Shown piece after piece: positions 3,374 through 23,111 of a DNA stretch of 64,000 bases. Positions within the stretch are counted from its first letter, which is position 1. The number at the start of each line of letters is the position of its first letter. A program made the position numbers and the translations under genes. The notes under the pieces were generated by a model. That model searched no databases and was not told the DNA's origin. It saw only the letters and a list, made by a program, of their open reading frames with translations. The DNA comes from Kineococcus rubinsiae (lineage in GTDB: Bacteria > Actinomycetota > Actinomycetes > Actinomycetales > Kineococcaceae). Where the stretch lies: assembly GCF_011839805.1 (NCBI RefSeq), contig NZ_VWPY01000001.1, positions 310,001 to 374,000 on the forward strand, in the 5' to 3' direction.

Positions 3374-4522
3374 GTGCCGATCAGCGCCCGCGGGCGGCAG
3401 CTGCTGCGCCTGGCCCACGAGCAGCCGGGGCTCACGCGCGCGGGAGCCGCTGCGCTGCTGGGCCTCAGCTCGGGTGCGGCCACCGACCTCGTCACCGCGC
3501 TGGCGCAGGCCCACCTGCTCGCGGAGGAGCCCGTCGCGCAGGCCGGCCGCCGCGGACGGCCGACCCGCCGCCTCGCGGCCCACCCGCAGGGGCCCGTCGT
3601 CCTCGCGGGCGTGCTCGCGCACGAGTCCTGGCGGCTGGTCGCCGTCGAGCTCGGCGGTGCCGTCCTCGACACCTCGGCCGGGACCCACCCCGGCACCGAC
3701 GCCGCGCCCGTCCTGCGCGCCCTGCGCACGGCGGGCCGGCGCCTCGAGCGCCGGTTCCCGGGCCGCGTGCGGGGGCTGGGCCTCGCCGTCCCCGGGCTCG
3801 TGCAGGCGGGCCACCTGCTCGACGCGCCGATGCTGGACTGGCACGCGCTGGACCTGCGCCCCGCGGCGCCCGCGGGCGTCGAGCTCACCGCCGGCAACGA
3901 CGCCACGCTCGCGGCCGTGGGCGAGGCCCGGCGCGGCGCGGCCGTCGGCACCGCCCTGGCGATCCACCTGCACGTCGACGCCGGCCTCGGCGGGGCCGTC
4001 ACCGTCGCCGGGCGGGTCCTGGCCGGGGCGCGGGGCCTCGCGGGCGAGTTCGGGCACATGCCGTTCGGCGACCCCGCCGTCCGCTGCGCCTGCGGTGCCC
4101 GCGGGTGCTGGGGCACCGCCGTCGACGGCTCGGCGATGGCGCGCACCCTCGGCGACGGGCCGCCGCGCGACCCGGTCGCCTACGCCCACCGCGTCCTCGA
4201 CCGCGCCGGCGGCGGGGACCCCGCCGCGCACCGGGCGCTCCGCGACGCGGGCACCGCCCTCGGCCGCGGCATCGCGGGCCTCGTCACCGGCCTGGACCCC
4301 GACCTCGTCACGCTGGGCGGGCTGGGCACCGACCTGCTGCACCACGTGCCCGGCGAGGTCCGGGCCGCGTTCACCGCCGGGCTGATGAGCTTCCGGCGCG
4401 ACGCCCCGCCGGAGATCGCGGCGGCCGCGCTCGGCGTCGACGGGCCGCTGGTCGGCGCCGCGGAGGAGGTCTGGTCCCGGGTCCTGGGCGACCCGACGGA
4501 CGGCGGGTCCCCGCTCGGGTGA
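3374..4522 (+). CDS. ROK family transcriptional regulator (NagC/XylR type)
   Basis: 382 residues: an N-terminal winged helix (about 1-65, LTRAGAAALLGLSSGAATDLV) followed by a ROK sugar-kinase-like domain. The ROK zinc motif is CACGARGCWG (about residue 240), and the phosphate-site glycines and GEFGHMPFG are present. The GTG at 3374 follows AGGGGGGAC; an earlier start would run through the operator and the MFS promoter. Such proteins are repressors released by sugars or sugar phosphates. The divergent MFS gene and the 29-base palindrome are the probable targets. Confidence 0.87.
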   Translation: MPISARGRQLLRLAHEQPGLTRAGAAALLGLSSGAATDLVTALAQAHLLAEEPVAQAGRRGRPTRRLAAHPQGPVVLAGVLAHESWRLVAVELGGAVLDTSAGTHPGTDAAPVLRALRTAGRRLERRFPGRVRGLGLAVPGLVQAGHLLDAPMLDWHALDLRPAAPAGVELTAGNDATLAAVGEARRGAAVGTALAIHLHVDAGLGGAVTVAGRVLAGARGLAGEFGHMPFGDPAVRCACGARGCWGTAVDGSAMARTLGDGPPRDPVAYAHRVLDRAGGGDPAAHRALRDAGTALGRGIAGLVTGLDPDLVTLGGLGTDLLHHVPGEVRAAFTAGLMSFRRDAPPEIAAAALGVDGPLVGAAEEVWSRVLGDPTDGGSPLG

Positions 4523-4566
4523 CCCCGGCCGCCTCAAGCGCGGCCCGGGCGTGTCGACACCTGATC

Positions 4567-6474
4567 GTGGCCGTGCTCCAGCCGACGCCACCGTCGGCGA
4601 CCTCCCCGCTGGCCAGCGGTGCGTCCACGCCCCGCGGGCTCGCGGTGACGTCCGGGAGCTTCTACCTCGGCGGCGGGGTCACCGCGCTGCTCGTCACCTG
4701 GGGTGCCGTCGGCTTCGGCACGCCCGAGGGACGCTTCCTCACCGTCGTCGCCGCCCTGGCCCTCACCGTCGGGGCCGTCCTGCTCGCCTGGCGGCGCCCG
4801 CTGCCGGAGCCGGTGTGGCACGTCGTCGTCGCCGCCGGCACGGGGCTCGTGGCCGTCGCCGTGGTGGTGTGCCCCGACGAGGCCTCCGCCGTCGCGCTCT
4901 CGACGGTGTTCACGTTCATCGCCATCGACGCCTTCTGCTTCTTCCGCGTGCGCGAAGCCGTCGCGCAGCTGTCCCTGCTCGTCGCCGCCTCCACCACCTC
5001 GCTGCTGTCGCACGCCGACGTCGGGCTGGGCACCGCGGCGGGGGTGGCGGTCGTCCTCGCCTGCATCGCCTTCGTCGTGGGACGGCTGGTCGCGACGGCC
5101 TCCGGCGCCACCCGCGACCCGCTGACCGGACTGCTCAACCGGCGCGGCTTCGACCGCGCCTACGAGGAGCTGCTGAGCACCGCCGAGCGGACGCGCGCGC
5201 CGCTGTCGCTGGCGCTCATCGACGTCGACGACTTCAAGGCCGTCAACGACGGCCTCGGCCACGCGGCGGGCGACGAGCTCCTGCGCGGCCTCGCGGCGGG
5301 GTTCCTCACCGCCCTCCCCGCACCGGCCGTGGTGGCGCGGTGCGGCGGTGACGAGTTCCTCGTCCTCCTGCCCGGCCTGACGGGAGAGCGGGCCCTGGAG
5401 GTGGTGGACGGGCTGCGCCTGCCGGGCGGCGACGCGACGCTGTCATGCGGGATCGCGGAGCTGGCGGCGGGCGAGAGCGGCGCGGACCTGCTGCGGCGCG
5501 CGGACACCGCGATGTACGCCGCCAAGCGGGGCGGCCGCGACCGCAGCTCGCTCGCCGACGCCGGCTCCCCCAGCCTTGCGCTCGACCTGGCGCACGCCGT
5601 GCGCGCGGGCGACGTCGCGGTCGTGCTGCAGCCGATCCTGCGCCTGAGCGACCGCACGGTCATCGGGGTCGAGGCGCTGGCCCGCTGGACGCACCCCGTG
5701 CGGGGGCCGGTGTCCCCCGCCGAGTTCATCCCCGTCGCCGAGGCGGCCGGGCTCATCGACGAGCTGGGCCTGGCCGTGCTCGCGCAGGCCTGCCGCGACA
5801 CGTCGCTGCTCGGCGAGGCCTGGGGCCTCCCGCTCCTGCTCACCGTCAACGTCTCGGGACGTCAGCTCGTCGCCCCGGGTTTCGCCGCCCGCGCCCTGTC
5901 GGTGCTGGCCGCCACCGGCTGGTCGCCGGCCGCCCTGGTGGTCGAGGTGACCGAGAGCCTGCTGGACGCGACCACCGCCGCGGCGACGAACAGCCTGAAG
6001 GAGCTGCGCGACGCGGGCGTGGCGGTGGCCATCGACGACTTCGGCACGGGCTACTCCGCGCTGAGCCGCCTGGACACGGTGCCCGTGGACGTCGTCAAGC
6101 TCGACGCCGACTTCATCGCCCACATCACGACGTCCCCGCGGCGCGCGGCGGTGCTGCGCGCCGTGCTGGACCTGTGCTCCTCCCTCGGGCTGGCCGTGGT
6201 CGCCGAGGGCGTCGAGCGGGCGGACCAGGCGGAGCTGCTGCGGCAGCTGGGGTGTCCCCTCGCGCAGGGCTACCTGTTCCACCGCCCGCTGCCGGTCGCC
6301 GACCTCGTCCGGCGCGACCCCGGGAACCTGCCGCCCGTGCCCGCGTCAGTTCCCGGACACCGAGAAGTGCTGGTAGTCCTTCAGGGTCCGCCACGACCCG
6401 CCCCAGGAGAAGCCCGCCGCGGCGAAGGCCTGCACGACCGCGTCGCCCGCGACGACGACCCCGGGCCGCGGTGA
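4567..6474 (+). CDS. Membrane-anchored GGDEF-EAL protein (c-di-GMP synthase/phosphodiesterase)
   Basis: The N-terminal 165 residues hold about five to six membrane helices. A GGDEF domain with intact RCGGDEF (about 259-263) follows, then an EAL domain with VEALARW (about 367), NVSGRQL, EVTES, DDFGTGYS, KLD and AEGVE, all the expected catalytic and metal residues. Both activities are therefore possible: making c-di-GMP from GTP and cutting it to pGpG. No I-site RxxD is seen just before GGDEF. The frame continues about 40 residues past the EAL fold and overlaps the convergent M15 peptidase gene by 129 bases. The GTG start is the first plausible one; GTG at 4573 is an alternative. Confidence 0.9.
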   Translation: MAVLQPTPPSATSPLASGASTPRGLAVTSGSFYLGGGVTALLVTWGAVGFGTPEGRFLTVVAALALTVGAVLLAWRRPLPEPVWHVVVAAGTGLVAVAVVVCPDEASAVALSTVFTFIAIDAFCFFRVREAVAQLSLLVAASTTSLLSHADVGLGTAAGVAVVLACIAFVVGRLVATASGATRDPLTGLLNRRGFDRAYEELLSTAERTRAPLSLALIDVDDFKAVNDGLGHAAGDELLRGLAAGFLTALPAPAVVARCGGDEFLVLLPGLTGERALEVVDGLRLPGGDATLSCGIAELAAGESGADLLRRADTAMYAAKRGGRDRSSLADAGSPSLALDLAHAVRAGDVAVVLQPILRLSDRTVIGVEALARWTHPVRGPVSPAEFIPVAEAAGLIDELGLAVLAQACRDTSLLGEAWGLPLLLTVNVSGRQLVAPGFAARALSVLAATGWSPAALVVEVTESLLDATTAAATNSLKELRDAGVAVAIDDFGTGYSALSRLDTVPVDVVKLDADFIAHITTSPRRAAVLRAVLDLCSSLGLAVVAEGVERADQAELLRQLGCPLAQGYLFHRPLPVADLVRRDPGNLPPVPASVPGHREVLVVLQGPPRPAPGEARRGEGLHDRVARDDDPGPR

Positions 6475-7065
6475 GCGGTCGACGAACGCGCGGCCCGCGG
6501 CGGGCAGCACCGTCGTGCCCTTGACGTAGGGGTTCTCCACCGGGTTCAGGTCGATCGCGGTGCCGTAGGAGTGCTCGGAGAACGAGGTCCCGCCCGTGGT
6601 GGCCCGGCAGTTGAACGCCGAGGTGTTGTCCGCGTCCATGGACGCGTCGTCGGAACCGCCGAACACGTCGACGGGCCGCATCGACGCGATCGGGTAGCGC
6701 AGCTCGTAGAGGCGGCCGAACACGTGCGCGGTCGCCTGCGCGACCGACGCCGCGACGACGATCGTGCCGCGGCGCGCGTGCCCGGCGGGGTCGAGGTAGG
6801 TGACGCTGACGGCGCGCAGGTCGGCCGGCCCGACGGGGCACCCCGGGCGCCAGCTCGCCGGCAGGTCGGCCGCCGTCACCCGCGTCACGGCCCACGTGTA
6901 GCCCGGCAGCGGGGCCTTCGCGGGCACCCGCGCGTGGCGTGCCACGACGGGGGCGTCAGCGCTGGTGGCGGCGACGGCGGCCGGCTGCGGTGACGCGGCG
7001 GCGACCGCAGACAGGGCGCCGGCGACCAGACCCAGCGCGACGGTGACGGAGCGGAGTCGTCCCAT
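6346..7065 (-). CDS. Secreted M15 family peptidase (D-alanyl-D-alanine carboxypeptidase-like)
   Basis: 239 residues with a signal peptide (basic start MGRLR, then an Ala/Leu-rich core ending near AVAATSADA). The zinc motif SEHSYGTAIDLNP supplies the His and Asp ligands and DYQHF near the C-terminus supplies the second His, as in M15 (VanY/Peptidase_M15_4) enzymes that trim D-Ala-ending peptides in the cell wall. The ATG at 7065 is preceded at 6 bases by TACGGT, a leaderless promoter, which argues against the in-frame start 12 codons upstream. The 3' end overlaps the GGDEF-EAL gene for 129 bases. Confidence 0.85.
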   Translation of the reverse strand: MGRLRSVTVALGLVAGALSAVAAASPQPAAVAATSADAPVVARHARVPAKAPLPGYTWAVTRVTAADLPASWRPGCPVGPADLRAVSVTYLDPAGHARRGTIVVAASVAQATAHVFGRLYELRYPIASMRPVDVFGGSDDASMDADNTSAFNCRATTGGTSFSEHSYGTAIDLNPVENPYVKGTTVLPAAGRAFVDRSPRPGVVVAGDAVVQAFAAAGFSWGGSWRTLKDYQHFSVSGN

Positions 7066-7071
7066 CGCCCG

Positions 7072-7077
7072 ACCGTA
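7072..7077 (-). promoter_or_regulatory. -10 box of a leaderless promoter for the M15 peptidase gene
   Basis: TACGGT on the minus strand ends 6 bases before the ATG, so transcription would begin at or next to the start codon. No Shine-Dalgarno sequence is present. Confidence 0.5.
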
Positions 7078-7119
7078 GCGCCGGCGACCACCTCGACGCA
7101 CGCACCCTGCTCGGCCCCG

Positions 7120-7728
7120 CTACCTCCGCGAGCGCAGCAGCTCCACCACGACGGGGACGAGCGAGACGACCACGACGACGGCGATGATCGGCAGCAGGTA
7201 GCGGTCGAGCCCGGGGATGCGGGCGCCCAGCACGGAACCCGCCAGCGCGACGCCCTGCGACCACACGAGCCCGCCGACGACCTGCCACAGCGTGAACCGC
7301 GCGGCGGGGACGCCCACGGTCCCCGCGAGCGGGTTCATGAGCGTCCGCACGACCGGGATGAAGCGGGCGATGACGACGGCCTTGCCGTGGCCGTAGCGGT
7401 CCAGGACGTCGGCGGCGCGGGCGATCCCGGCGGCCCGGCGGGGGTGCCCCTCGGCCCGCAGCAGCGCGGGGCCGGCGCGGCGCCCGATGAGGTACCCCAC
7501 CTCGGCCCCCAGCAGCGCACCCGCCCCGGCCGCGACGAGCACCGGGGTGAGCGAGAGGTGCGCGGCGGACCCGGAGGCGGTGGCGGTGAGCAGCCCCGCC
7601 GTGAACAGCAGCGAGTCGCCCGGGAGGAAGAACCCCACGAGCAGTCCCGTCTCCGCGAAGAGGACGACGAACACCCCCAGCGCGCCGTAGGAGGCGAGGA
7701 GGTGGGTGGGGTCGAGGAGGCCGCTCAC
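7120..7728 (-). CDS. DedA/SNARE-associated family membrane protein
   Basis: 202 residues with four to five hydrophobic segments. DedA hallmarks are ETGLLVGFFLPGDSLLFTAGLL near the N-terminus and the basic-Pro motif ARFIPVVRTLMNPLAG. Family members are proton-dependent lipid-handling proteins that include undecaprenyl-phosphate flippases. It is the last gene of a five-gene operon; its GTG overlaps the TGA of the COG4705 gene (GTGA). The link to an ABC exporter and a two-component system suggests envelope or lipid-carrier stress, which is inference. Confidence 0.88.
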   Translation of the reverse strand: MSGLLDPTHLLASYGALGVFVVLFAETGLLVGFFLPGDSLLFTAGLLTATASGSAAHLSLTPVLVAAGAGALLGAEVGYLIGRRAGPALLRAEGHPRRAAGIARAADVLDRYGHGKAVVIARFIPVVRTLMNPLAGTVGVPAARFTLWQVVGGLVWSQGVALAGSVLGARIPGLDRYLLPIIAVVVVVSLVPVVVELLRSRR

Positions 7729-8570
7729 GCCCGGTCCGCCCCGGCCTCCGCCGGCGTCCTGCGCCCGGCGTCGCGGTGCCGCACCGTCACCAGGGCGACG
7801 AGGACGGCGATCGCGGCGAGCGCGACGAGGGCGACCGGCCCGTCGCCGACGCCGAGACCCGCCCCGACGTCGTGCGGCTTGGCGACCCAGTCCGCGAACG
7901 AGGCGCCCAGCGGGCGGGTCAGCACGTAGGCCGCCCAGAACGTCAGGACGGGGTTCGCCCCCGCCCGCCACGCGACGAGCGGGACGGCGATGGCGGCGAG
8001 GAACAGCAGCCCCGACGGGAGGAACCCGAGGTGGAGCGTCAGCCCCGTCAGGTCGCCCACCGCGGTGCCCAGCGCGAAGGTGGCGATGACCGTGGCCCAG
8101 TAGAAGCGCTCGCGGCGCGGCGTCGTGATGCTGTGGACGTCGACGGTCCCCTCGCTGCGCCACCACCAGGCGAGGAGGACGGCCACGGCGAGGGCGTACA
8201 CCGCGGAGGTCACGTCGTACGACAACCCCGTCGCCACGTGCAGGACGTCCGCCACGATCGTCCCGAACACCGCGATCATCGCGACGCAGGTCCAGTAGAC
8301 CGGCGGTGAGTACCGCGGGGAGCGCAGCTGCCACCGCAGCGCCAGCAGGAAACCCCCGACGCCCACGACGCCGCCGAGGACGAGGTTCGTCGTCCCCAGG
8401 TAGTCCGAGGCGGCCTCGCCCATCCCGGTCGTGAGGACCTTGACGAGCCAGAACACCGCGGTGATCTCCGGCACCTTGGGGGCGAGCACCGCGGCGGGTG
8501 CGGCGGAGCGGGGGGCGGGGGTCACGGGCATCTCCGATCGATCGGGCAGTGAGGTCGTCCGGTACCGCAT
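7725..8570 (-). CDS. COG4705-type integral membrane protein of unknown function
   Basis: 281 residues, with about eight hydrophobic segments after a polar N-terminus. The region KVPEITAVFWLVKVLTTGMG followed by EAASDYL is typical of COG4705 membrane-anchored proteins. ATG at 8570 overlaps the upstream stop as TGATG, which favours coupling over the later ATG at 8531, which has GGAG directly against it. The C-terminal 25 residues are charged. It lies between a secreted protein and DedA in one operon. No biochemical role is established for the family that I know of. Confidence 0.75.
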   Translation of the reverse strand: MRYRTTSLPDRSEMPVTPAPRSAAPAAVLAPKVPEITAVFWLVKVLTTGMGEAASDYLGTTNLVLGGVVGVGGFLLALRWQLRSPRYSPPVYWTCVAMIAVFGTIVADVLHVATGLSYDVTSAVYALAVAVLLAWWWRSEGTVDVHSITTPRRERFYWATVIATFALGTAVGDLTGLTLHLGFLPSGLLFLAAIAVPLVAWRAGANPVLTFWAAYVLTRPLGASFADWVAKPHDVGAGLGVGDGPVALVALAAIAVLVALVTVRHRDAGRRTPAEAGADRA

Positions 8571-9028
8571 CAGGCGTCCGGGTCGAAGCAGACGTCGAAC
8601 GCGCTGAGGGGGTTGGCGACGTCGACACCCCGGGCGTCGGGGATCGTGAACCCGCCGAGCAGCTTGGCGGGGCCGGCCGCGGTGTAGCAGGCGTTCGCGT
8701 GCACCTGCAGCTCGAACTTCCCCTCCTGCGCGGCGCCCGTCTGGTCGGTGAAGTCGACGAGGCAGATCCAGTCGCTGCCGGCACCCACGTCGGCCACCGC
8801 GGGACCCCCGCGGTCGCACGTGCTCCGCGCCGCGGCGGCGGCGACGCTCACGTCGTGGCCGAGGATCCGCTGCTGGTCCACGTACAGGCGGCCGAACGCC
8901 GGGGTCAGCGAGTCCTCGACGCGCGCCCGCGTGACGTCGGGGTGGCCGGCGGCGCTCAGCCCGGCCACGAGCGCGGCGGCGACGGCGAGCCCCGCCGCCG
9001 GCCTCGCGACGGTCCTCAGGTTCCTCAC
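8570..9028 (-). CDS. Secreted small protein of unknown function, four cysteines
   Basis: 152 residues. A clear signal peptide (MRNLRTVARPAAGLAVAAALVAGLSAAG) precedes a mature part with four cysteines (STCDRGG, DWICLVDF, NACYTA, DVCFDPD) that could form two disulfides. The GTG has GGAGG 6 bases upstream, partly inside the permease stop region, and the stop overlaps the next ATG. I do not recognise a named family. Its place between an ABC exporter and COG4705/DedA membrane proteins suggests an extracytoplasmic partner or sensor, but that is inference. Confidence 0.75.
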   Translation of the reverse strand: MRNLRTVARPAAGLAVAAALVAGLSAAGHPDVTRARVEDSLTPAFGRLYVDQQRILGHDVSVAAAAARSTCDRGGPAVADVGAGSDWICLVDFTDQTGAAQEGKFELQVHANACYTAAGPAKLLGGFTIPDARGVDVANPLSAFDVCFDPDA

Positions 9029-9030
9029 GA

Positions 9031-9921
9031 TCAGCCTCCGGTGATGTCGCGGCGCACCAGGGTGCGGTGGGCGACGGCCAGGCAGACCGCCGTCCAGGCC
9101 AGGGACACGAGGGCGCCCTGGACGAGCGGCCCCGTGACGGGGGTGGCGGTGAACAACCCGTGCCACGCCTCGAGCGGCGTGCTCAGCAGCGCGCGGCGCA
9201 GCCGGCCCGTCCCGCCCAGTGACCCCACGAGCCCCATGAGCAGGCCCAGCACCAGCGGCCCGACCACCCCCAGCGCGGGGTTGCGGGTCCGCACCGACAG
9301 CAGCACGGCCAGCGCCGTGTACCCGAGCAGCGGTGCCGCCGTGCTCGCCCAGGCGGCCGCGACGAGGGCGGCCGCCTGCGGCGCGCCGATGCTCTGCCCC
9401 GACAGCCCCGTCAGCGGCTGCGTGCCCACGAGCAGCACGCCCGAGGCGATCGCGCTGCCGCCCAAGACGACGAGGACGGCGGCGGCGAACGTCACGGCCG
9501 CCAGGGTCTTGGCCCGGAACACCTGCGTGCGGCTCACCGACCGGGTCAGCAGCGTCTTCCACGTCCCGTGCTGGTCCTCGCTCGCGAACACGTCCCCCGC
9601 GACGATGCTGGTCAGCAGCGGGAACAGGTACTGGGTGGCGAACCCGAGCAGCAGCAGCGGGACCGCGAACCCGCTGTCGTGCACGTGGCGGCCGAACAGC
9701 GTGTCCGCGGGCGGGCGCTGGCCCCGCAGCACGAGCACGACCAGCGGGGGCGCGATCAGCACCCCGGCCAGGACCGCCCGAGTGCGCACGAGGGCGGCGA
9801 GCTTGACCAGCTCCCACCGGTAGGCCGTCCACGTGCCCGGGGGACGCGGCGGGCGCGACGGACGGGGGACGAGGTGCGCGGCGGTCGACCTCTCGACGGC
9901 CCGGACCGGGGAGGGGTTCAC
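9031..9921 (-). CDS. ABC transporter permease (ABC-2 type)
   Basis: 296 residues with about six membrane helices after a 45-residue basic, proline-rich cytoplasmic start. The pattern TWTAYRWELVKL, then a large loop with DVFASEDQHGTWKTLLTRSVSRTQ, is characteristic of ABC-2 exporters such as bacitracin- and lantibiotic-type permeases. The GTG overlaps the TGA of the ATPase gene (GTGA), so the two are translationally coupled and form one exporter. Confidence 0.87.
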   Translation of the reverse strand: MNPSPVRAVERSTAAHLVPRPSRPPRPPGTWTAYRWELVKLAALVRTRAVLAGVLIAPPLVVLVLRGQRPPADTLFGRHVHDSGFAVPLLLLGFATQYLFPLLTSIVAGDVFASEDQHGTWKTLLTRSVSRTQVFRAKTLAAVTFAAAVLVVLGGSAIASGVLLVGTQPLTGLSGQSIGAPQAAALVAAAWASTAAPLLGYTALAVLLSVRTRNPALGVVGPLVLGLLMGLVGSLGGTGRLRRALLSTPLEAWHGLFTATPVTGPLVQGALVSLAWTAVCLAVAHRTLVRRDITGG

Positions 9922-16393: not shown

Positions 16394-18763
16394 ATGTCGT
16401 CCTCCTCCCCCGCCGCCGCGCCGGCGACCTCCGCGCCGCACCACGGCCCCCAGCCCGGGCTGGTCGTCGGGATCCTCGCGCTGGCCGGGATCTCCGTCTC
16501 GCTCATGCAGACGCTGGTCATCCCGATCGTCGGCCAGCTGCCCGTGCTGCTGGGCTCGACGCCCACCAACACGGCCTGGGCCATCACCGCCACGCTGCTC
16601 GCCGGCGCCGTGGTCACGCCCATCGCCGGGCGGCTGGGCGACATGCTCGGCAAGCGGCCCGTCCTGCTGGCCAGCCTCGCGGTCATGGTCGCGGGCTCCG
16701 TGGTCTGCGCCTTCGCCGACTCGCTGCTGCCGATGATCGTCGGGCGCGGCCTGCAGGGCTTCGCGGCGGGCGTCATCCCGCTGGGCATCAGCCTCATGCG
16801 CGATGTCCTTCCCGCTGAGAAGCTCGGGCCCGCCACGGCCCTCATGAGCGCCTCCCTCGGCGTGGGCGGCGCGCTCGGCCTGCCCGCCGCCGCGCTCATC
16901 GCCGACAACGCCGACTGGCACGCCCTGTTCTGGGTCGCCGCCGGCCTGGGCACCGTCGTCCTCGTCCTCATCGCCGCCCTCATCCCCGCGCCCCGCGGCG
17001 CCGCCCGACCGGCCGCGCGCTTCGACGTGCCGGGCGCGATCGGCCTCTCCGCCGCCCTGGTCGCCCTGCTGCTCGGCGTCTCCAAGGGCAAGGACTGGGG
17101 CTGGACCAGCGCCACGACCCTCGGCCTGCTCGCCGCCGCGGTGGTCCTCGCGATCGCCTGGGGCGCCTGGGAGCTGCGCACCGCGCACCCGCTGGTCGAC
17201 CTGCGCACGGTCGCCCGCCGCCAGGTGCTGCTGACCAACGTCGCCTCGCTGGTCTTCGGCTACGCCATGTTCGGCATGTCCCTGGCGCTGCCGCAGATCA
17301 TCCAGCTGCCGGCCGCCACCGGGTACGGCCTGGGCGAGTCGATGCTCGTCGCGGGCCTCGCGATGGTGCCCGGCGGACTGGTCATGATGGTGACCGCCGG
17401 GGCCTCCGCGAAGGTCACCCGCGCGCACGGGCCCAAGGTCAGCCTGATGATCGGCGCGGTCGTCGTCGCCGCGGGCTACGTGCTGGGCGCGGTGTTCATG
17501 GACGCCGTGTGGCAGCTCTCCGTCGTCTCGGGCGTCATCGGCGCCGGCATCGGGTTCGCCTACGGGGCCATGCCCGCGCTCATCATGTCCGCCGTCCCCG
17601 CGAGCGAGACGGCCTCGGCCAACAGCTTCAACACCCTCGTCCGCTCGGTCGGCAGCTCCGTCTCCAGCGCCGTCGCCGGCGCGGTGCTCGCGGCCTCTGC
17701 CACGACCCTGGGCACGGTCACCGTCCCCTCGCAGGACGGCTTCCGCACGGTCCTGCTCGTCGCGGCCGGGGCCGCCCTCGTCGCGCTGGTCGTCGCGGCC
17801 TTCCTGCCGCGCCGCACGGCGACCGCGCAGCCCGCGGCCCCGCTCGCGACACCCGACCCCGCCTCCCCCACCACCGGGTCCCCCACCGGCGCCGCCGTTC
17901 CCGGCCCCCGCGTCCGCCACTCCACGGCCGGGGACGCTCCCGCGGCCACCGCCCCGGGCGTCCGGGGCACCGTCTCGGCGGCGGGCGCGCGCCCGCTGCC
18001 CGGTGCCGTCGTCACCGTGACCGACGCCGCGGGACGACAGGTCTCCCGCACCACCACGGGCCCCGACGGCCGCTTCGAGCTCGCCGTCCCGACGGGCGGG
18101 ACGTACCTGCTCATCACGGCGGCACCCCAGCTCGCGCCGCACGCGACGCTCGTCGCCGTGGCCGACCGGCCCGTCACGCAGGACGTCCGCCTCGCAGGGC
18201 GCTCCACCGTGACCGGACGCGTCCTCGCGCCCACCGCGCAGGACCCCGCGGACACGGTCCCGGTCGTGCCCGGGGCGCTGGTCAGCCTCACCGACGCCAC
18301 GGGCCACGTCGTCGCGACCAGCACGACGGACGGCTCGGGCACCTACGAGTTCAGCTCGCTGGCGGGCGGCGCCTACGTCCTCGCCGCCCAGGCCACCCGG
18401 CACCGCCCCACGGCGGTCGGCGTCGACCTCGGCGACGACAGCGCCTCGACGCTGGACCTCGTCCTGACCCCCGGCGCCCACCTCGCCGGCACGGTGACGG
18501 CGGGGCCGGGGCAGCAGCCGCTGGCCGACGCCGTCGTGACGCTCGTGGACGAGGACGGTCAGGTGGTCGCCCGCGCCACGACCGGTGGCGACGGCGGGTA
18601 CCGCTTCGCCGACCTGCCCGACGGCGAGTACGTCCTCACCGCCGCGAGCTACGCACCCACCACCCGGCGGGTGTCGCTGGCGGGCGGGCGCGTGCACGCG
18701 ACCGACGTCCACCTCGGCGCCGAGCCGGCGGACGTGCCCGCGGACGTGCCCGCGACCGCCTGA
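16394..18763 (+). CDS. MFS (DHA2, 14-helix) exporter fused to three carboxypeptidase-regulatory-like domains
   Basis: 789 residues. Residues 20-480 form a drug:H+ antiporter with 14 hydrophobic helices; GRLGDMLGKRPV is the loop 2-3 motif. A Pro/Ala/Thr-rich linker (about 480-520) leads to three beta-sandwich repeats (about 520-605, 610-695, 700-780). Each has the pattern GAxVxVTDxxGxxV, D/G-rich turn, Y/F, GGxYxLxA, typical of CarboxypepD_reg/SdrC-like domains. DHA2 C-termini lie in the cytoplasm, so these domains would too, which is unusual because the fold is mostly extracellular. The MMPL transporter 1.2 kb downstream has the same cassette. ATG with GAAGGACC upstream. Divergent TetR control. 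Confidence 0.88.
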   Translation: MSSSSPAAAPATSAPHHGPQPGLVVGILALAGISVSLMQTLVIPIVGQLPVLLGSTPTNTAWAITATLLAGAVVTPIAGRLGDMLGKRPVLLASLAVMVAGSVVCAFADSLLPMIVGRGLQGFAAGVIPLGISLMRDVLPAEKLGPATALMSASLGVGGALGLPAAALIADNADWHALFWVAAGLGTVVLVLIAALIPAPRGAARPAARFDVPGAIGLSAALVALLLGVSKGKDWGWTSATTLGLLAAAVVLAIAWGAWELRTAHPLVDLRTVARRQVLLTNVASLVFGYAMFGMSLALPQIIQLPAATGYGLGESMLVAGLAMVPGGLVMMVTAGASAKVTRAHGPKVSLMIGAVVVAAGYVLGAVFMDAVWQLSVVSGVIGAGIGFAYGAMPALIMSAVPASETASANSFNTLVRSVGSSVSSAVAGAVLAASATTLGTVTVPSQDGFRTVLLVAAGAALVALVVAAFLPRRTATAQPAAPLATPDPASPTTGSPTGAAVPGPRVRHSTAGDAPAATAPGVRGTVSAAGARPLPGAVVTVTDAAGRQVSRTTTGPDGRFELAVPTGGTYLLITAAPQLAPHATLVAVADRPVTQDVRLAGRSTVTGRVLAPTAQDPADTVPVVPGALVSLTDATGHVVATSTTDGSGTYEFSSLAGGAYVLAAQATRHRPTAVGVDLGDDSASTLDLVLTPGAHLAGTVTAGPGQQPLADAVVTLVDEDGQVVARATTGGDGGYRFADLPDGEYVLTAASYAPTTRRVSLAGGRVHATDVHLGAEPADVPADVPATA

Positions 18764-18786
18764 CGGCCACCACCCGGCGTCGGCCC

Positions 18787-18820
18787 CGGGCTGCGTGCGG
18801 CACCGTCCGCGCGCAGCCCG
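18787..18820 (+). terminator. Strong hairpin after the MFS-cassette gene
   Basis: CGGGCTGCG and CGCAGCCCG pair perfectly. Inside, a U-G wobble and GCGG/CCGC extend the stem to 14 pairs around a 6-base loop. It starts 24 bases after the MFS stop. No U-run. Confidence 0.6.
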
Positions 18821-18913
18821 TCGACGCCCCTGCCGGTGACGCGCTGTGGTCGAGGTGCTCCAATCGGTGAGAGCGACGGGCAGGCGGCCCGCGCTGGTCC
18901 CCGGGGAGGGCAC

Positions 18914-19951
18914 GTGGTCCGGCGAGGTCGGCGGTGGCAGCGGGCGCGACGGCTGGGCGCCTGGCGCGCTCTGGCGGGCGCCCTCGTCGTGCTGTCGCTG
19001 GCGTGCGCGGCCCTGGTCCTGACCGGCCCCACGCGGCCGGGACCGCCGCCCAGCCGGGGCCTGCCCGACCTCTTCGCCGAGGACGTGCGCAACGCCCCGG
19101 GCGCGGCCGGGCGGGCGGCGGACCCCACCCGGGTGCCCCTGGACCAGCAGCTCAACCTCGACGCGGGCAAGCTCATCGGCGCCGGGCTGGTCACCGAGGT
19201 CCGCATCACGCAAGGCCCCCGGGTGGTGGTCTACCGGCGGCACACTCCCCCGGACGACGAGGTCAGCCGGCCGCTCGCGCCGGTCGACGAGTACCTCGAC
19301 GGCGAGCGCTACCTCATCGAGGTGAGCGTGGCCCAGCCCGCGGACCTCGCGGCGCTGCGCTGGCGCCACGCCGTGCTGCAGGTGCTCGTCGTGACCCTGC
19401 TGGTGCTCGCCGCGGGCGGCCTGTGGGTCAGCCGCCGCCGCCACGCCGAGCAGGAGCGCATCACCCTGGTCGACCCCCTGACGGGTGCCGGCAACCGGCG
19501 GCAGCTGCAGCGCCTCGCGGCCCGGGCCCTGCGCGACCCCGCCGGCGGGCGGCGCCACGCCCTGCTGCTCGTGGACCTCGACCGGTTCAAGCAGCTGAAC
19601 GACCGCTTCGGCCACGCCCACGGCGACGCCGCGCTGCGCCGGCTGGCCGGCGCGCTGCAGGAGGCCGTCCGCCCCGGCGACCACGTCGTGCGCCTCGGCG
19701 GGGACGAGTTCGCCGTCCTGCTGCACGACGTGCCCGGCGAGCCCCGGGACGCGCTCCTGCTGCACCAGGTGCTGCAGCGCGTCCGCCAGCAGCTGCCGGA
19801 CCTCGGCGTCAGCGGCGGCGGGGCCGTCTGGCCGCGCGACGCGGCCGACCTGGCCGGCCTGACGCACGCCGCGGACCAGGCGATGTACGCCGACAAGCGG
19901 CGGCGGCGCGAGACCCTCGACCTGCGCGCCACCGACCCCGCCACCCGCTGA
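18914..19951 (+). CDS. Membrane-bound diguanylate cyclase with small extracytoplasmic sensor
   Basis: 345 residues. TM1 is at about 17-38. An extracytoplasmic part of about 100 residues with charged, Asp/Arg-rich sequence follows, then TM2 about 155-175 and a GGDEF domain with DPLTGAGNRRQ, LVDLDRFKQLND and intact RLGGDEF (about 262-266). It should make c-di-GMP. No EAL domain. The GTG at 18914 follows GGGGAGGG. An in-frame start 26 codons upstream is possible. It lies between the two cassette transporters, its stop 10 bases from the convergent MMPL stop. Confidence 0.85.
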   Translation: MVRRGRRWQRARRLGAWRALAGALVVLSLACAALVLTGPTRPGPPPSRGLPDLFAEDVRNAPGAAGRAADPTRVPLDQQLNLDAGKLIGAGLVTEVRITQGPRVVVYRRHTPPDDEVSRPLAPVDEYLDGERYLIEVSVAQPADLAALRWRHAVLQVLVVTLLVLAAGGLWVSRRRHAEQERITLVDPLTGAGNRRQLQRLAARALRDPAGGRRHALLLVDLDRFKQLNDRFGHAHGDAALRRLAGALQEAVRPGDHVVRLGGDEFAVLLHDVPGEPRDALLLHQVLQRVRQQLPDLGVSGGGAVWPRDAADLAGLTHAADQAMYADKRRRRETLDLRATDPATR

Positions 19952-19961
19952 CGGGCGCGGC

Positions 19962-22900
19962 TCAGCGGTCCGCGGTGCTCCGCCCGGCCGCCGCCGCGTC
20001 GTGCGAGCCGTCGTGCGCCACGTCGTGCGAGCCGTCGTCCGCCGGCCGGGTCGCGCCCAGCACCAGGTCGACGGTCCCCGCCACGCCGTCCTCGACCCGC
20101 ACCGTCCTGGCCACGGGCGCGTAGCCGACCGCGGTCAGCGTGTACGGGCCGCCGGTGAGGTCGTCGAAGCGGAAGCCGCCGTCCTCGTCGCTGGCCACCG
20201 TGTCGACCACGGCGCCCGCGGCGTCCACGAGCGTGAGGGTGGCCTCCCGCACGGGCCGCCCGGAGGCGCTGACGGTGCCGACGAGGCGACCGCCCGCGCT
20301 GAGCCGGACGTCCGCGGTCGCCTCGCCCGCCTCGGGGACCTCGACGCCCTGCGCGACCGGCCGGTGGGAGTCCGACAGCGCGCTGAGGACGTAGGAACCG
20401 CCCGTGAGGCCGTCGACCCGGTAGGCCCCGCCGGCGTCCGTGCGGGTCGTGGCCACGACGGCGCCGCGGACGTCGAGCAGCGTCAGGACGACGCCGGCGA
20501 CGCCGTGACGAGCGGCGGGGGCGTCGGCGGCCGAGACCCGCCCGGTGAGGGCGGCGGCCCCGGCCAGGCGCAGGTCCCGGCGCACGGGCCGGTCGGCGAC
20601 GGCCACCGAGGCGGCGGCGGGCCGCACCCCGCCCGCGGCCACGATGAGGACGTAGGTGCCCCCGGCCGTCAGCGGCAGGGCGAAGCGGCCGTGCTCGTCG
20701 CTCGCCCCGCGCGCGACCTGGCGCCCCGCGGAATCGGTGACGGTGAGCGCCGCCCCGGCCAGGGCGCGACCGGCGCCGTCCAGCACGGTGCCGTGCACGG
20801 CCGGGCCCTCGACGGCGGCGTGCGCCGGGGTGCGCGGGGCGGGCACCGCAGCGGCCGCGGGGACCTGCCCGCCGTCCTCGGCCGCGAGCAGCGCGTCGAG
20901 CCCGCGGCCCTCGGCGTCCACGTTCGGCACGAGGCGCTGCATCCAGCGCGGCATCCACCACGCCGCCTCGCCCAGCAGGGTGAGAGCGGCCGGCACCAGG
21001 ACCATCCGCACGACGAGCGCGTCGACGAGGACGCCCACGGTCAGCGCCATCCCGATCGTGCCGATGGTCGCCTCGCCCGAGAACGCGAACCCGGCGAACA
21101 CCCCGCACATGATGAAGGCGGCCGAGACGACGACCGGGGCGGAGCGGCGGAAGCCGGCCAGCACGGCGTGGGTCGGGCTGTGCCCCTTGGAGTGCGCCTC
21201 GTGGATCGCCGAGACCAGGAACATCTGGTAGTCCATCGCGAGCCCGAACAGGATGCCCACGACGAGGACCGGCATGAAGCTCAGCAGCGGAGCGGGCTGG
21301 GCGACGCCGAACACGGCGGAGAGCCAGCCCCACTGGTAGATCGCGACGGTGGCGCCGAGGCTCGCGCCCAGCGACAGCAGGAACCCGAGGGTGGCCAGCA
21401 CCGGCACCGCGAGGGAGCGGAACAGCATCACGAGCAGGGCCAGCGCCAGCACGACGATGAGCGCGATGTAGACCGGCAGCGCGTCGTTCAGGGCCTGGGT
21501 GACGTCGATGTTCAGGGCCGTCTGACCGGTCACGAGGACGTCGGCGCCGGGCGTCGAGGCGACCGCGGAGCGGATGTCGCGCACCAGGTCCGCCGTCGCG
21601 GCGTCCGTCGGGCCCGACCCGGGGACCACGGTGATCAGCTGCGTGCTGCCGTCCGCGGAGGGCACGGCCGGCGTGACGGCGACGACGTCGCCCAGGGCCT
21701 GCACCTGCCGGGTCACGGTGGCCGCGGCGGTGGCCACGGCCTCCGGCGCCGACCCGCTGCGGCCGTCGACGAGGACGACCAGCGTCGACTGGCTGCCCTC
21801 GCCGAAGCCCTCGACGAGCAGGTCGTAGGCCTGGCGCGCGGAGCTGTCCGGGTCGGCGTTCTCGGCCGACGGCAGGGCGGTGCGCATGCTCAGGACGGGC
21901 ACGGCCGCGGTGCCGACGACGAGGACCGCGGCGAGCAGGGCGAGGACGGGGTGGCGGGTCACCGAGCGCGACCAGCGGCCGAGGAACCCGGGGCCGGCCA
22001 GCGTCGCGTCGGACACGTCCGCGGCCTGCTGCCCCGACTGCGCGACGGCGTCCGCCGCGCGGAGCCCGGCCAGGTCGCGGTGGCGCTCGCGCGCGGGCAG
22101 CACCCGGCGGCCGAGGACCGTCAGCAGCGCCGGCACCGCGGTCAGCGCGATGAGGACGGCGACCGCGACGGTGGCCGCGGCGGCGAGGCCCATCTGGGTC
22201 AGGAAGGGGATGTCCACGACGGCGAGGCCGACGAGCGCGACCACGACGGTGGTGCCGGCGAAGACGACGGCCGTGCCCGCCGTCCCGGTGGCCTTGGCGA
22301 CCGCCTGGGCCACGGGCGCACCGGCCCGCAGCTCGGTGCGCGTGCGGGCGAAGATGAAGAGCGCGTAGTCGATCCCGACGGCGAGGCCCAGCATCGAGGC
22401 CAGCGCCGGGGTCGTGGTGGAGAGGCTGACGACCCGGCCGAGGGCGGTGATGCCGAGGACGCCCACGCCGACGCCGATGGCGGCGGTCAGCAGGTTCGCG
22501 CCCGCGGCGGCCAGGGAGCCGTAGGTCAGCAGCAGCACGATGAACGCCACGACCACGCCGACGGCCTCGGCGCTGTGCGCGCCGCCGCCCTCGGGCAGGT
22601 CGGAGGTCACCTCGACGCGGACGTCGGCACCGCCGGCGGTGGCGTCGTGGTCGGTCGCGGCCTCGAAGGCGGCGCTGGTGTCCGCGCTGACGTCCCCGGC
22701 GGCGGTGGCGAAGGTCACGGTGGCGGCGGCGATGGTCTGGTCGGCGTTGACGCGCGGCATCTGCGGCGCCAGCGGATCGCTGACGGCCGCGATCCCGTCG
22801 ACGGCGCGCACCTGCGCGAGGACGTCCTCGAGCGCCGCGGCGTTCGCGCCCGTGAGGGTCTGCCCCGCCGGCGCCTGGAACACGACGGTCGCGCTCGCCC

Positions 22901-23111
22901 GGTCGGCCCCGTTGGAGAACTCCCGCCCCAGGACGTCGAGGCCCTGGCTGGCCTCGGTGCCGGGGATGGAGAACGAGGTGTCGGGAGACGCGCTGCGCGG
23001 CAGGCCGAAGGCCAGCGCGGCGACCGCGGCCAGCAGCAGCGCCCACACGCCGAGGACGAGGCGGTGGCGGCGGGCGCTGAAGCGGCCCAGGCGGTAGAGC
23101 AGGGTGGCCAT
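19962..23111 (-). CDS. MMPL/RND-family transporter fused to three carboxypeptidase-regulatory-like domains
   Basis: 1049 residues. Residues 1-735 form an MMPL exporter: 12 helices in two halves with large extracytoplasmic loops after helices 1 and 7, and the family motifs GLAVGIDYALFI and LFGLAMDYQMFL. After a linker (about 735-770) come three repeats (about 770-1020) that align one by one with those of the MFS gene: HGTVLDGAGRALAGAALTVT, LTLLDVRGAVVATTRTDAGG, LTLVDAAGAVVDTVASDEDG. The end is a His/Asp-rich tail with DGSHD twice. ATG preceded by GAGGAG. Divergent from a TetR gene with a perfect 14-base palindrome in the leader. MMPL proteins export lipids, siderophores or drugs; substrate unknown. 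Confidence 0.9.
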   Translation of the reverse strand: MATLLYRLGRFSARRHRLVLGVWALLLAAVAALAFGLPRSASPDTSFSIPGTEASQGLDVLGREFSNGADRASATVVFQAPAGQTLTGANAAALEDVLAQVRAVDGIAAVSDPLAPQMPRVNADQTIAAATVTFATAAGDVSADTSAAFEAATDHDATAGGADVRVEVTSDLPEGGGAHSAEAVGVVVAFIVLLLTYGSLAAAGANLLTAAIGVGVGVLGITALGRVVSLSTTTPALASMLGLAVGIDYALFIFARTRTELRAGAPVAQAVAKATGTAGTAVVFAGTTVVVALVGLAVVDIPFLTQMGLAAAATVAVAVLIALTAVPALLTVLGRRVLPARERHRDLAGLRAADAVAQSGQQAADVSDATLAGPGFLGRWSRSVTRHPVLALLAAVLVVGTAAVPVLSMRTALPSAENADPDSSARQAYDLLVEGFGEGSQSTLVVLVDGRSGSAPEAVATAAATVTRQVQALGDVVAVTPAVPSADGSTQLITVVPGSGPTDAATADLVRDIRSAVASTPGADVLVTGQTALNIDVTQALNDALPVYIALIVVLALALLVMLFRSLAVPVLATLGFLLSLGASLGATVAIYQWGWLSAVFGVAQPAPLLSFMPVLVVGILFGLAMDYQMFLVSAIHEAHSKGHSPTHAVLAGFRRSAPVVVSAAFIMCGVFAGFAFSGEATIGTIGMALTVGVLVDALVVRMVLVPAALTLLGEAAWWMPRWMQRLVPNVDAEGRGLDALLAAEDGGQVPAAAAVPAPRTPAHAAVEGPAVHGTVLDGAGRALAGAALTVTDSAGRQVARGASDEHGRFALPLTAGGTYVLIVAAGGVRPAAASVAVADRPVRRDLRLAGAAALTGRVSAADAPAARHGVAGVVLTLLDVRGAVVATTRTDAGGAYRVDGLTGGSYVLSALSDSHRPVAQGVEVPEAGEATADVRLSAGGRLVGTVSASGRPVREATLTLVDAAGAVVDTVASDEDGGFRFDDLTGGPYTLTAVGYAPVARTVRVEDGVAGTVDLVLGATRPADDGSHDVAHDGSHDAAAAGRSTADR

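Follow-up and report, generated by a model that had tools for sequence, protein, structure and literature searches.

A three-domain CarboxypepD_reg cassette at the C-termini of MFS and MMPL exporters of actinobacteria and its possible role as a docking platform

Two exporters of different families encoded in a 64,000-nucleotide stretch of the Kineococcus rubinsiae genome (called the window throughout), the major facilitator superfamily (MFS) protein P0001 and the MMPL protein P0002, end in homologous cassettes of three consecutive CarboxypepD_reg domains (D1 to D3). This cassette recurs as a module in actinobacteria, where no fewer than three exporter lineages carry it (EmrB/DHA2-type MFS, P0001-type MFS and MMPL) and it also exists in a soluble form. 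As a tentative reading, we propose that it may act as a cytoplasmic docking platform for soluble carriers of hydrophobic ligands, placed on exporters of hydrophobic substrates. Loci, genomes and contigs are identified by our labels (L, G and C, respectively) where they have to be told apart; genes within loci were called with a script based on GC content by codon position, and their starts are uncertain.

The shared tail, its fold and its predicted location

Pfam profiles placed P0001 in the MFS (MFS_1, E 6e-42, 144 bits against a cut-off of 33) and P0002, with its 12 transmembrane (TM) segments, in the MMPL family (MMPL, E 7e-88), and in both proteins CarboxypepD_reg (PF13620) was matched in three stretches above its cut-off (E 9e-34, 116 bits in P0001; E 3e-32, 111 bits in P0002). 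A preliminary description of the window had claimed that an MFS and an MMPL exporter share a three-domain tail whose domains align one by one, and had named a significant alignment between the two C-terminal regions as its test. Both open reading frames lie where they had been placed (Table 1), and the two tails align with 122 identical residues at 265 aligned positions (46%, 168 bits, E 1e-55). Each domain of P0001 finds its best match in the P0002 domain of equal rank (D1, 5e-21; D2, 7e-16; D3, 4e-16). P0001 scores 155 bits against the EmrB subfamily model TIGR00711, below its cut-off of 230, and is therefore called EmrB-like and not filed as EmrB; P0002 reaches 194 bits against the MmpL3 model NF052608, whose cut-off is 1400.

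In an AlphaFold2 model the P0001 cassette folds into three beta-sandwiches of transthyretin-like fold (mean predicted local distance difference test score, pLDDT, of 91). The highest Z among its structural matches belongs to the surface protein 6fwv, which is matched over the whole length with a poor fit (Z 14.2, root-mean-square deviation 14.7 Å over 246 residues), and D1 alone closely matches the transthyretin-like domains of carboxypeptidases N and D (Z 14, 1.2 Å over 77 residues). The cassette has the fold and the sequence family of the CarboxypepD_reg/transthyretin-like domains of carboxypeptidases N and D, hydroxyisourate hydrolase and NOMO2; unlike in those proteins, it forms a tandem of three at the predicted inner end of exporters. 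Across 27 diverse cassette rows the order of the domains is the same and 12 columns are invariant.

The preliminary description had assigned both C-termini to the cytoplasm, and several lines of evidence agree with this. Hydropathy analysis finds 14 hydrophobic segments ahead of the P0001 cassette, the full-length model contains 14 long helices followed by a linker (residues 475-518) with pLDDT under 50, and the protein aligns with the structures of EfpA, EmrB, NorC and QacA. In P0002 12 hydrophobic segments precede the cassette, and the alignment to solved MmpL3 reaches residue 728. Since the TM numbers are even and the homologues point to an inside N-terminus, both cassettes most likely lie on the cytoplasmic side. 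This location is independently backed by soluble relatives: stand-alone cassettes from Actinomycetospora (L040, L042, L045), Gordonia (L049, L050) and other genomes (L109, L115, L122) begin without a hydrophobic N-terminal segment, and no signal peptide was seen by eye in 15 aligned CarboxypepD_reg-YceI proteins, whose genes adjoin many cassettes (see below).

Beta-sandwich domains of the CarboxypepD_reg and related types are generally interpreted as decoration outside the cell, and the cassette has its fold class and sequence matches in common with SdrD B-like and SpaA/CnaB surface domains. Unlike those domains, the two window cassettes contain no lysine (0-2 lysines across the 27 rows), and no surface anchor was seen at the C-termini of P0001 and P0002. 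The intramolecular isopeptide bond of the CnaB type needs a lysine, so the window cassettes can form none and do not belong to the CnaB/SpaA domains.

Distribution and descent of the cassette

Four three-domain cassettes are encoded in the K. rubinsiae genome, namely the window pair and those of two MFS proteins on contig C61, and cassettes are present in all 11 genomes of the genus; one genome from another genus of the family gave no cassette at E 1e-10. The 29 cassettes of the genus are carried by 14 EmrB/DHA2-like MFS proteins (called MFS2), 10 MMPL proteins and five P0001-type MFS proteins (called MFS1), where G003 (L038, L144), in which the MMPL part and the cassette lie in different frames, was counted as an MMPL case. 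In a sample of 297 genomes from the order, 13 had the cassette at E 1e-25. With a broader profile it was found in at least 81 of the 394 genomes of a class sample at E 1e-20, and at E 8.5e-42 or better there were at least 91 matches in 53 genomes; these and the other class-wide counts given below are lower bounds, as 4, 6 or 10 candidates were scored per genome. Named carriers are Planosporangium, Dactylosporangium (a metagenome-assembled genome), Streptomyces, Actinopolymorpha, Actinomycetospora, Mangrovactinospora, Nocardia and Gordonia, and a plasmid of Streptomyces anthocyanicus holds a copy annotated as 'MFS transporter' that adjoins a MarR gene. Outside Kineococcus, L116 is an MMPL-cassette fusion. 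Shorter forms also occur: two-domain versions on MFS1-like proteins (e.g. L103, L126) and single D1-like domains on Actinomycetospora MFS and DUF1275 membrane proteins. The earlier proposal of one module recruited by different exporters is supported by its presence on MFS1, MFS2 and MMPL proteins.

The cassette is optional. The 394 genomes were searched with the membrane part of P0001. Of the 30 best matches, 26 lie in open frames shorter than 660 residues, which cannot hold an MFS protein plus three domains; the cassette is present in three of the other four, P0001 and the proteins of G503 and G611, and missing from that of G410, so that it was shown for 3 of 30. Most close MFS homologues therefore lack the cassette, so the transporter fold does not depend on it.

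Several candidates were set aside. Among the putative stand-alone cassettes, L107, L119 and L160 are incomplete because a contig or locus ends within them, and L111 resembles a degraded MFS gene. Among the matches to the domain profile, L139 and L156 contain a small protein beside urate-type genes, read as hydroxyisourate hydrolase, and L053 and L134 are long repeat proteins; none of these are members. As separate observations, L109 (6385-7188, plus strand) has a stand-alone cassette where the syntenic L106 has an MFS-cassette gene, and its N-terminal residues look like those of such an MFS protein, as though an in-frame deletion had removed the MFS part; L142 contains two P0002-like MMPL genes in tandem (4394-7465 and 7580-9509, both plus strand), the second cut by the contig end; and Saccharopolyspora L061 (3519-5324, plus strand) encodes a permease of the ABC2_membrane_3 type that ends in a single CarboxypepD_reg domain, possibly another class of tailed transporter.

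A tree of 57 cassettes was built with a quick method and Shimodaira-Hasegawa-like approximate likelihood ratio (SH-aLRT) support only. From 108 rows 16 were dropped (cut, duplicate or unrelated), the other 92 were thinned to 55 at 80% identity and two rows from the K. rubinsiae genome were added; L107, L111 and L119 were kept in the tree, and its count of stand-alone rows was not used. The MFS1 cassettes of the genus form one clade (SH-aLRT 95) and the MMPL cassettes another (93, below the level that the tool marks with a star). Together with the MFS2 cassettes of the genus they fall into a clade of 21 rows (99) that includes two MFS2 rows of other genera (L031, L069). MFS1 cassettes from outside the genus (L108, L169) and the MMPL cassette of L116, which has a long branch and an unsure place, group elsewhere, and the branches marked with a star require a minimum of two changes of label for MFS1 and as many for MMPL. 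This grouping indicates that related cassettes sit on three exporter families within the genus and that similar couplings arose elsewhere. A recent swap is made less likely by the positions of the P0001 and P0002 cassettes, which are not sister to each other; the domain exchange between neighbours that their tandem location had suggested finds no support, as each cassette clusters with cassettes of the same transporter type from other species and P0001-type and MMPL-cassette genes are neighbours in none of the 13 fetched MFS1 or MMPL sibling loci.

Linked carrier genes and a possible docking role

On contig C61 two MarR-type genes, an MFS-cassette gene and a gene for a CarboxypepD_reg-YceI protein form a same-strand cluster whose last two genes overlap by 4 nucleotides; the partner protein, encoded outside the window, belongs to the YceI family (profile match E 3e-44). 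With the 15 aligned CarboxypepD_reg-YceI proteins as query, the class sample gave 37 matches at E 2.4e-115 or better, separated by a gap from 20 full-length matches at 5e-86 to 1e-75. Of the 37 top genes, 35 begin 15-403 nucleotides downstream of where a same-strand cassette match ends (29/31 without the genomes that supplied six query rows). The 4-nucleotide overlap recurs in 22 of 38 locus-level pairs, some of which represent one operon in overlapping loci. Exactly one CarboxypepD_reg-YceI gene is present in each of the 11 Kineococcus genomes, always adjoining an MFS2 cassette, and in Actinomycetospora and Gordonia a stand-alone cassette lies directly upstream of such a gene. The CarboxypepD_reg domain of the YceI partner scores best with D1 in 15 of 15 proteins. 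Among other single domains, those of three DUF1275 proteins also prefer D1, and two MFS tails are split, one for D1 and one for D2.

A second linkage involves Polyketide_cyc2 proteins of the lipid-transport type. In the Streptomyces-like genus g112 such a gene lies upstream of an MFS2-cassette gene (L106, 9235-9675, minus strand), and 29 of its 37 close relatives, all of them in g112, lie upstream of a cassette, compared with 0 of 8 more distant rows that were tested. Conserved synteny alone could account for this linkage, which is confined to a single genus and has about 250 nucleotides between the two genes in L106. Of the 91 cassettes, 35 have a YceI neighbour, 29 a Polyketide_cyc2 neighbour and none has both.

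Docking appears to be the simplest account of an optional, tethered tail on different exporters with a lipocalin-like operon neighbour that has a like domain. A flexible linker would tether the portable cassette to the exporter's C-terminus in the cytoplasm. Where the operon has its commonest form (MarR, MFS-cassette, CarboxypepD_reg-YceI), the partner would be a soluble cytosolic lipocalin-like protein with its own D1-type domain, which, judging by its family membership alone, may bind a hydrophobic substrate or metabolite. Contacts between the cassette and this D1-type domain would bring the carrier to the exporter, where cargo could be handed over or sensed. P0001 and P0002, which have no adjoining carrier gene, might share the single CarboxypepD_reg-YceI protein of the genome in trans; this is compatible with the one gene per genome in all 11 genomes, a count that does not itself test sharing. 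In a more speculative extension, which we regard as rather unlikely as it stands, soluble lipocalin-like carriers of actinobacteria would reach exporters of the unrelated MFS and MMPL/RND superfamilies through one exchangeable docking cassette, whose gain would give an exporter access to the cargo.

A number of observations weigh against docking. The remaining 27 of the 91 cassettes, the window pair included, have neither ligand-binding neighbour. The common cytoplasmic partner suggested in the preliminary description is backed in broad terms by the CarboxypepD_reg-YceI genes beside cassettes in many genera, but no YceI gene adjoins P0001 or P0002. None of the 20 more distant CarboxypepD_reg-YceI proteins is encoded beside a cassette. 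The two exceptions among the 37 top genes depart from the operon, L179 with MarR, an MFS2 gene without cassette and CarboxypepD_reg-YceI, and L178 with MarR and CarboxypepD_reg-YceI and no MFS gene. The partner prefers D1 over D2 by just 3-18 bits. Finally, hydropathy flags one segment inside the P0001 cassette and two inside that of P0002; the stretch flagged in P0001 is a beta strand in the full model.

Two further sets of loci bear on the same genes. In Actinomycetospora, DUF1275 membrane proteins that end in a single D1-type domain (L045, 8340-9446; L042, 8283-9350 and 9443-10489; all minus strand) are encoded near the stand-alone cassette and CarboxypepD_reg-YceI genes. L171-L177 are more distant CarboxypepD_reg-YceI genes of Streptomyces-like genomes with no adjoining cassette; that of L176 was missed by the gene-calling script.

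Other roles can be envisaged for the cassette. It could be a ligand-sensing or gating module that binds a substrate or signal and regulates the exporter, with the YceI protein buffering the ligand and no docking involved. Transthyretin binds ligands, transthyretin-ligand complexes are among the fold matches of the cassette, and the operon linkage to a ligand-binding family would fit a shared ligand; the D1-type domain on the YceI protein and the long disordered linker fit tethering better, and we consider this role unlikely. Somewhat less probable still is a scaffold, oligomerisation or localisation tag that positions exporters, with the YceI linkage being secondary: the C-terminal domain of MmpL3 acts in localisation and protein contacts according to the accessible part of PMC10171966, and single domains of this kind also occur on DUF1275 membrane proteins, yet such a tag leaves both the linkage of 35 of the 37 CarboxypepD_reg-YceI genes and the soluble cassettes unexplained. 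That the tail is neutral or weakly useful and was spread by recombination among repetitive GC-rich genes, with no defined partner, would agree with its optional presence and repeated couplings but is improbable given the conserved domain order and invariant columns and the tight gene linkage in distant genera. Ordinary extracytoplasmic surface domains on transporters of unusual topology are very improbable: the best Foldseek match and several sequence matches are surface proteins or pilins (6fwv TIE protein, SdrD, pilins), against which stand the 14 and 12 TM segments before the cassettes with their homologous structures, the missing lysines and the soluble relatives without a hydrophobic N-terminus.

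Window neighbourhood, known systems and biological meaning

The divergent TetR-type regulator beside each transporter and the diguanylate cyclase between them that had been described were recovered (Table 1), and their recurrence was uneven. A homologue of the P0002-side TetR regulator was found next to the MMPL-cassette gene of 6 out of 9 sibling loci, one of which is a short contig among the nine, but no TetR match lies beside P0001-type MFS genes in 4 sibling loci. A link to the GGDEF gene was not supported, with a match in the fetched flanks of only 1 of 17 sibling loci (L138-L154). The GGDEF protein has two likely TM segments. Its gene immediately follows P0001 in the same orientation, and the two may be transcribed together, but this arrangement is not recurrent.

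Table 1. Coordinates of the two exporters, their cassette domains and neighbouring features in the window.
Feature	Position	Strand	Basis
P0001, 14-TM MFS exporter (DHA2/EmrB-like) with C-terminal three-domain cassette	16394..18763	+	profile, hydropathy, model
P0001 cassette D1 (residues 522-603)	17957..18202	+	profile, alignment, model
P0001 cassette D2 (residues 604-695)	18203..18478	+	profile, alignment, model
P0001 cassette D3 (residues 696-776)	18479..18721	+	profile, alignment, model
P0002, 12-TM MMPL exporter with C-terminal three-domain cassette	19962..23111	-	profile, hydropathy
P0002 cassette D1 (residues 771-852)	20556..20801	-	profile, alignment
P0002 cassette D2 (residues 853-941)	20289..20555	-	profile, alignment
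P0002 cassette D3 (residues 942-1020)	20052..20288	-	profile, alignment
TetR-type regulator divergent from P0001	15600..16343 (start uncertain, 16343 or 16376)	-	TetR_N 6e-9
Perfect 9-bp inverted repeat TAAGTCAAG-CA-CTTGACTTA in the gap between the TetR gene and P0001	16344..16363	.	candidate operator, putative function
TetR-type regulator divergent from P0002	23334..23921 (start approximate)	+	TetR_N 1e-13
GGDEF gene between the transporters	18836 or 18914..19951	+	profile

Every part of the system belongs to a known family, and no description of the cassette, the fusions or the operon was found in an open-access library, which leaves out most subscription journals. The membrane part of P0001 is like that of the 14-TM exporters of the DHA2/EmrB type (EfpA, EmrB, NorC, QacA), whose solved chains were matched over the membrane part only; P0001 adds the cassette. 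P0002 has the 12 TM segments of MmpL3 and other MMPL/RND exporters. The C-terminal domain of MmpL3 is cytoplasmic, helps polar localisation and is described as probably disordered in the accessible part of PMC10171966, in contrast to the beta-sandwich cassette of P0002. The YceI partner has its YceI domain in common with the Burkholderia lipocalin BcnA, which, as far as the accessible parts of the respective papers go, raises resistance through antibiotic capture (PMC5350466) and is linked to the gene of a membrane protein, cytochrome b561 (PMC9113575). BcnA is secreted, whereas the partner described here has no signal peptide by eye, carries a CarboxypepD_reg domain ahead of its YceI domain and has its gene linked to that of an MFS exporter. 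A YceI gene beside sulfonamide-degradation genes has been proposed to aid uptake (PMC6868719, accessible part).

Across the actinobacteria, domains commonly taken for surface decoration are thus connected with what is predicted to be the cytoplasmic face of exporters; this includes many Streptomyces-like genomes, in which MFS pumps matter for natural-product export. If docking is true, MFS and MMPL pumps would gain a soluble supply partner together with a transferable tag that directs cargo, and the MarR-MFS-YceI operon offers a ready test system in laboratory Streptomyces.

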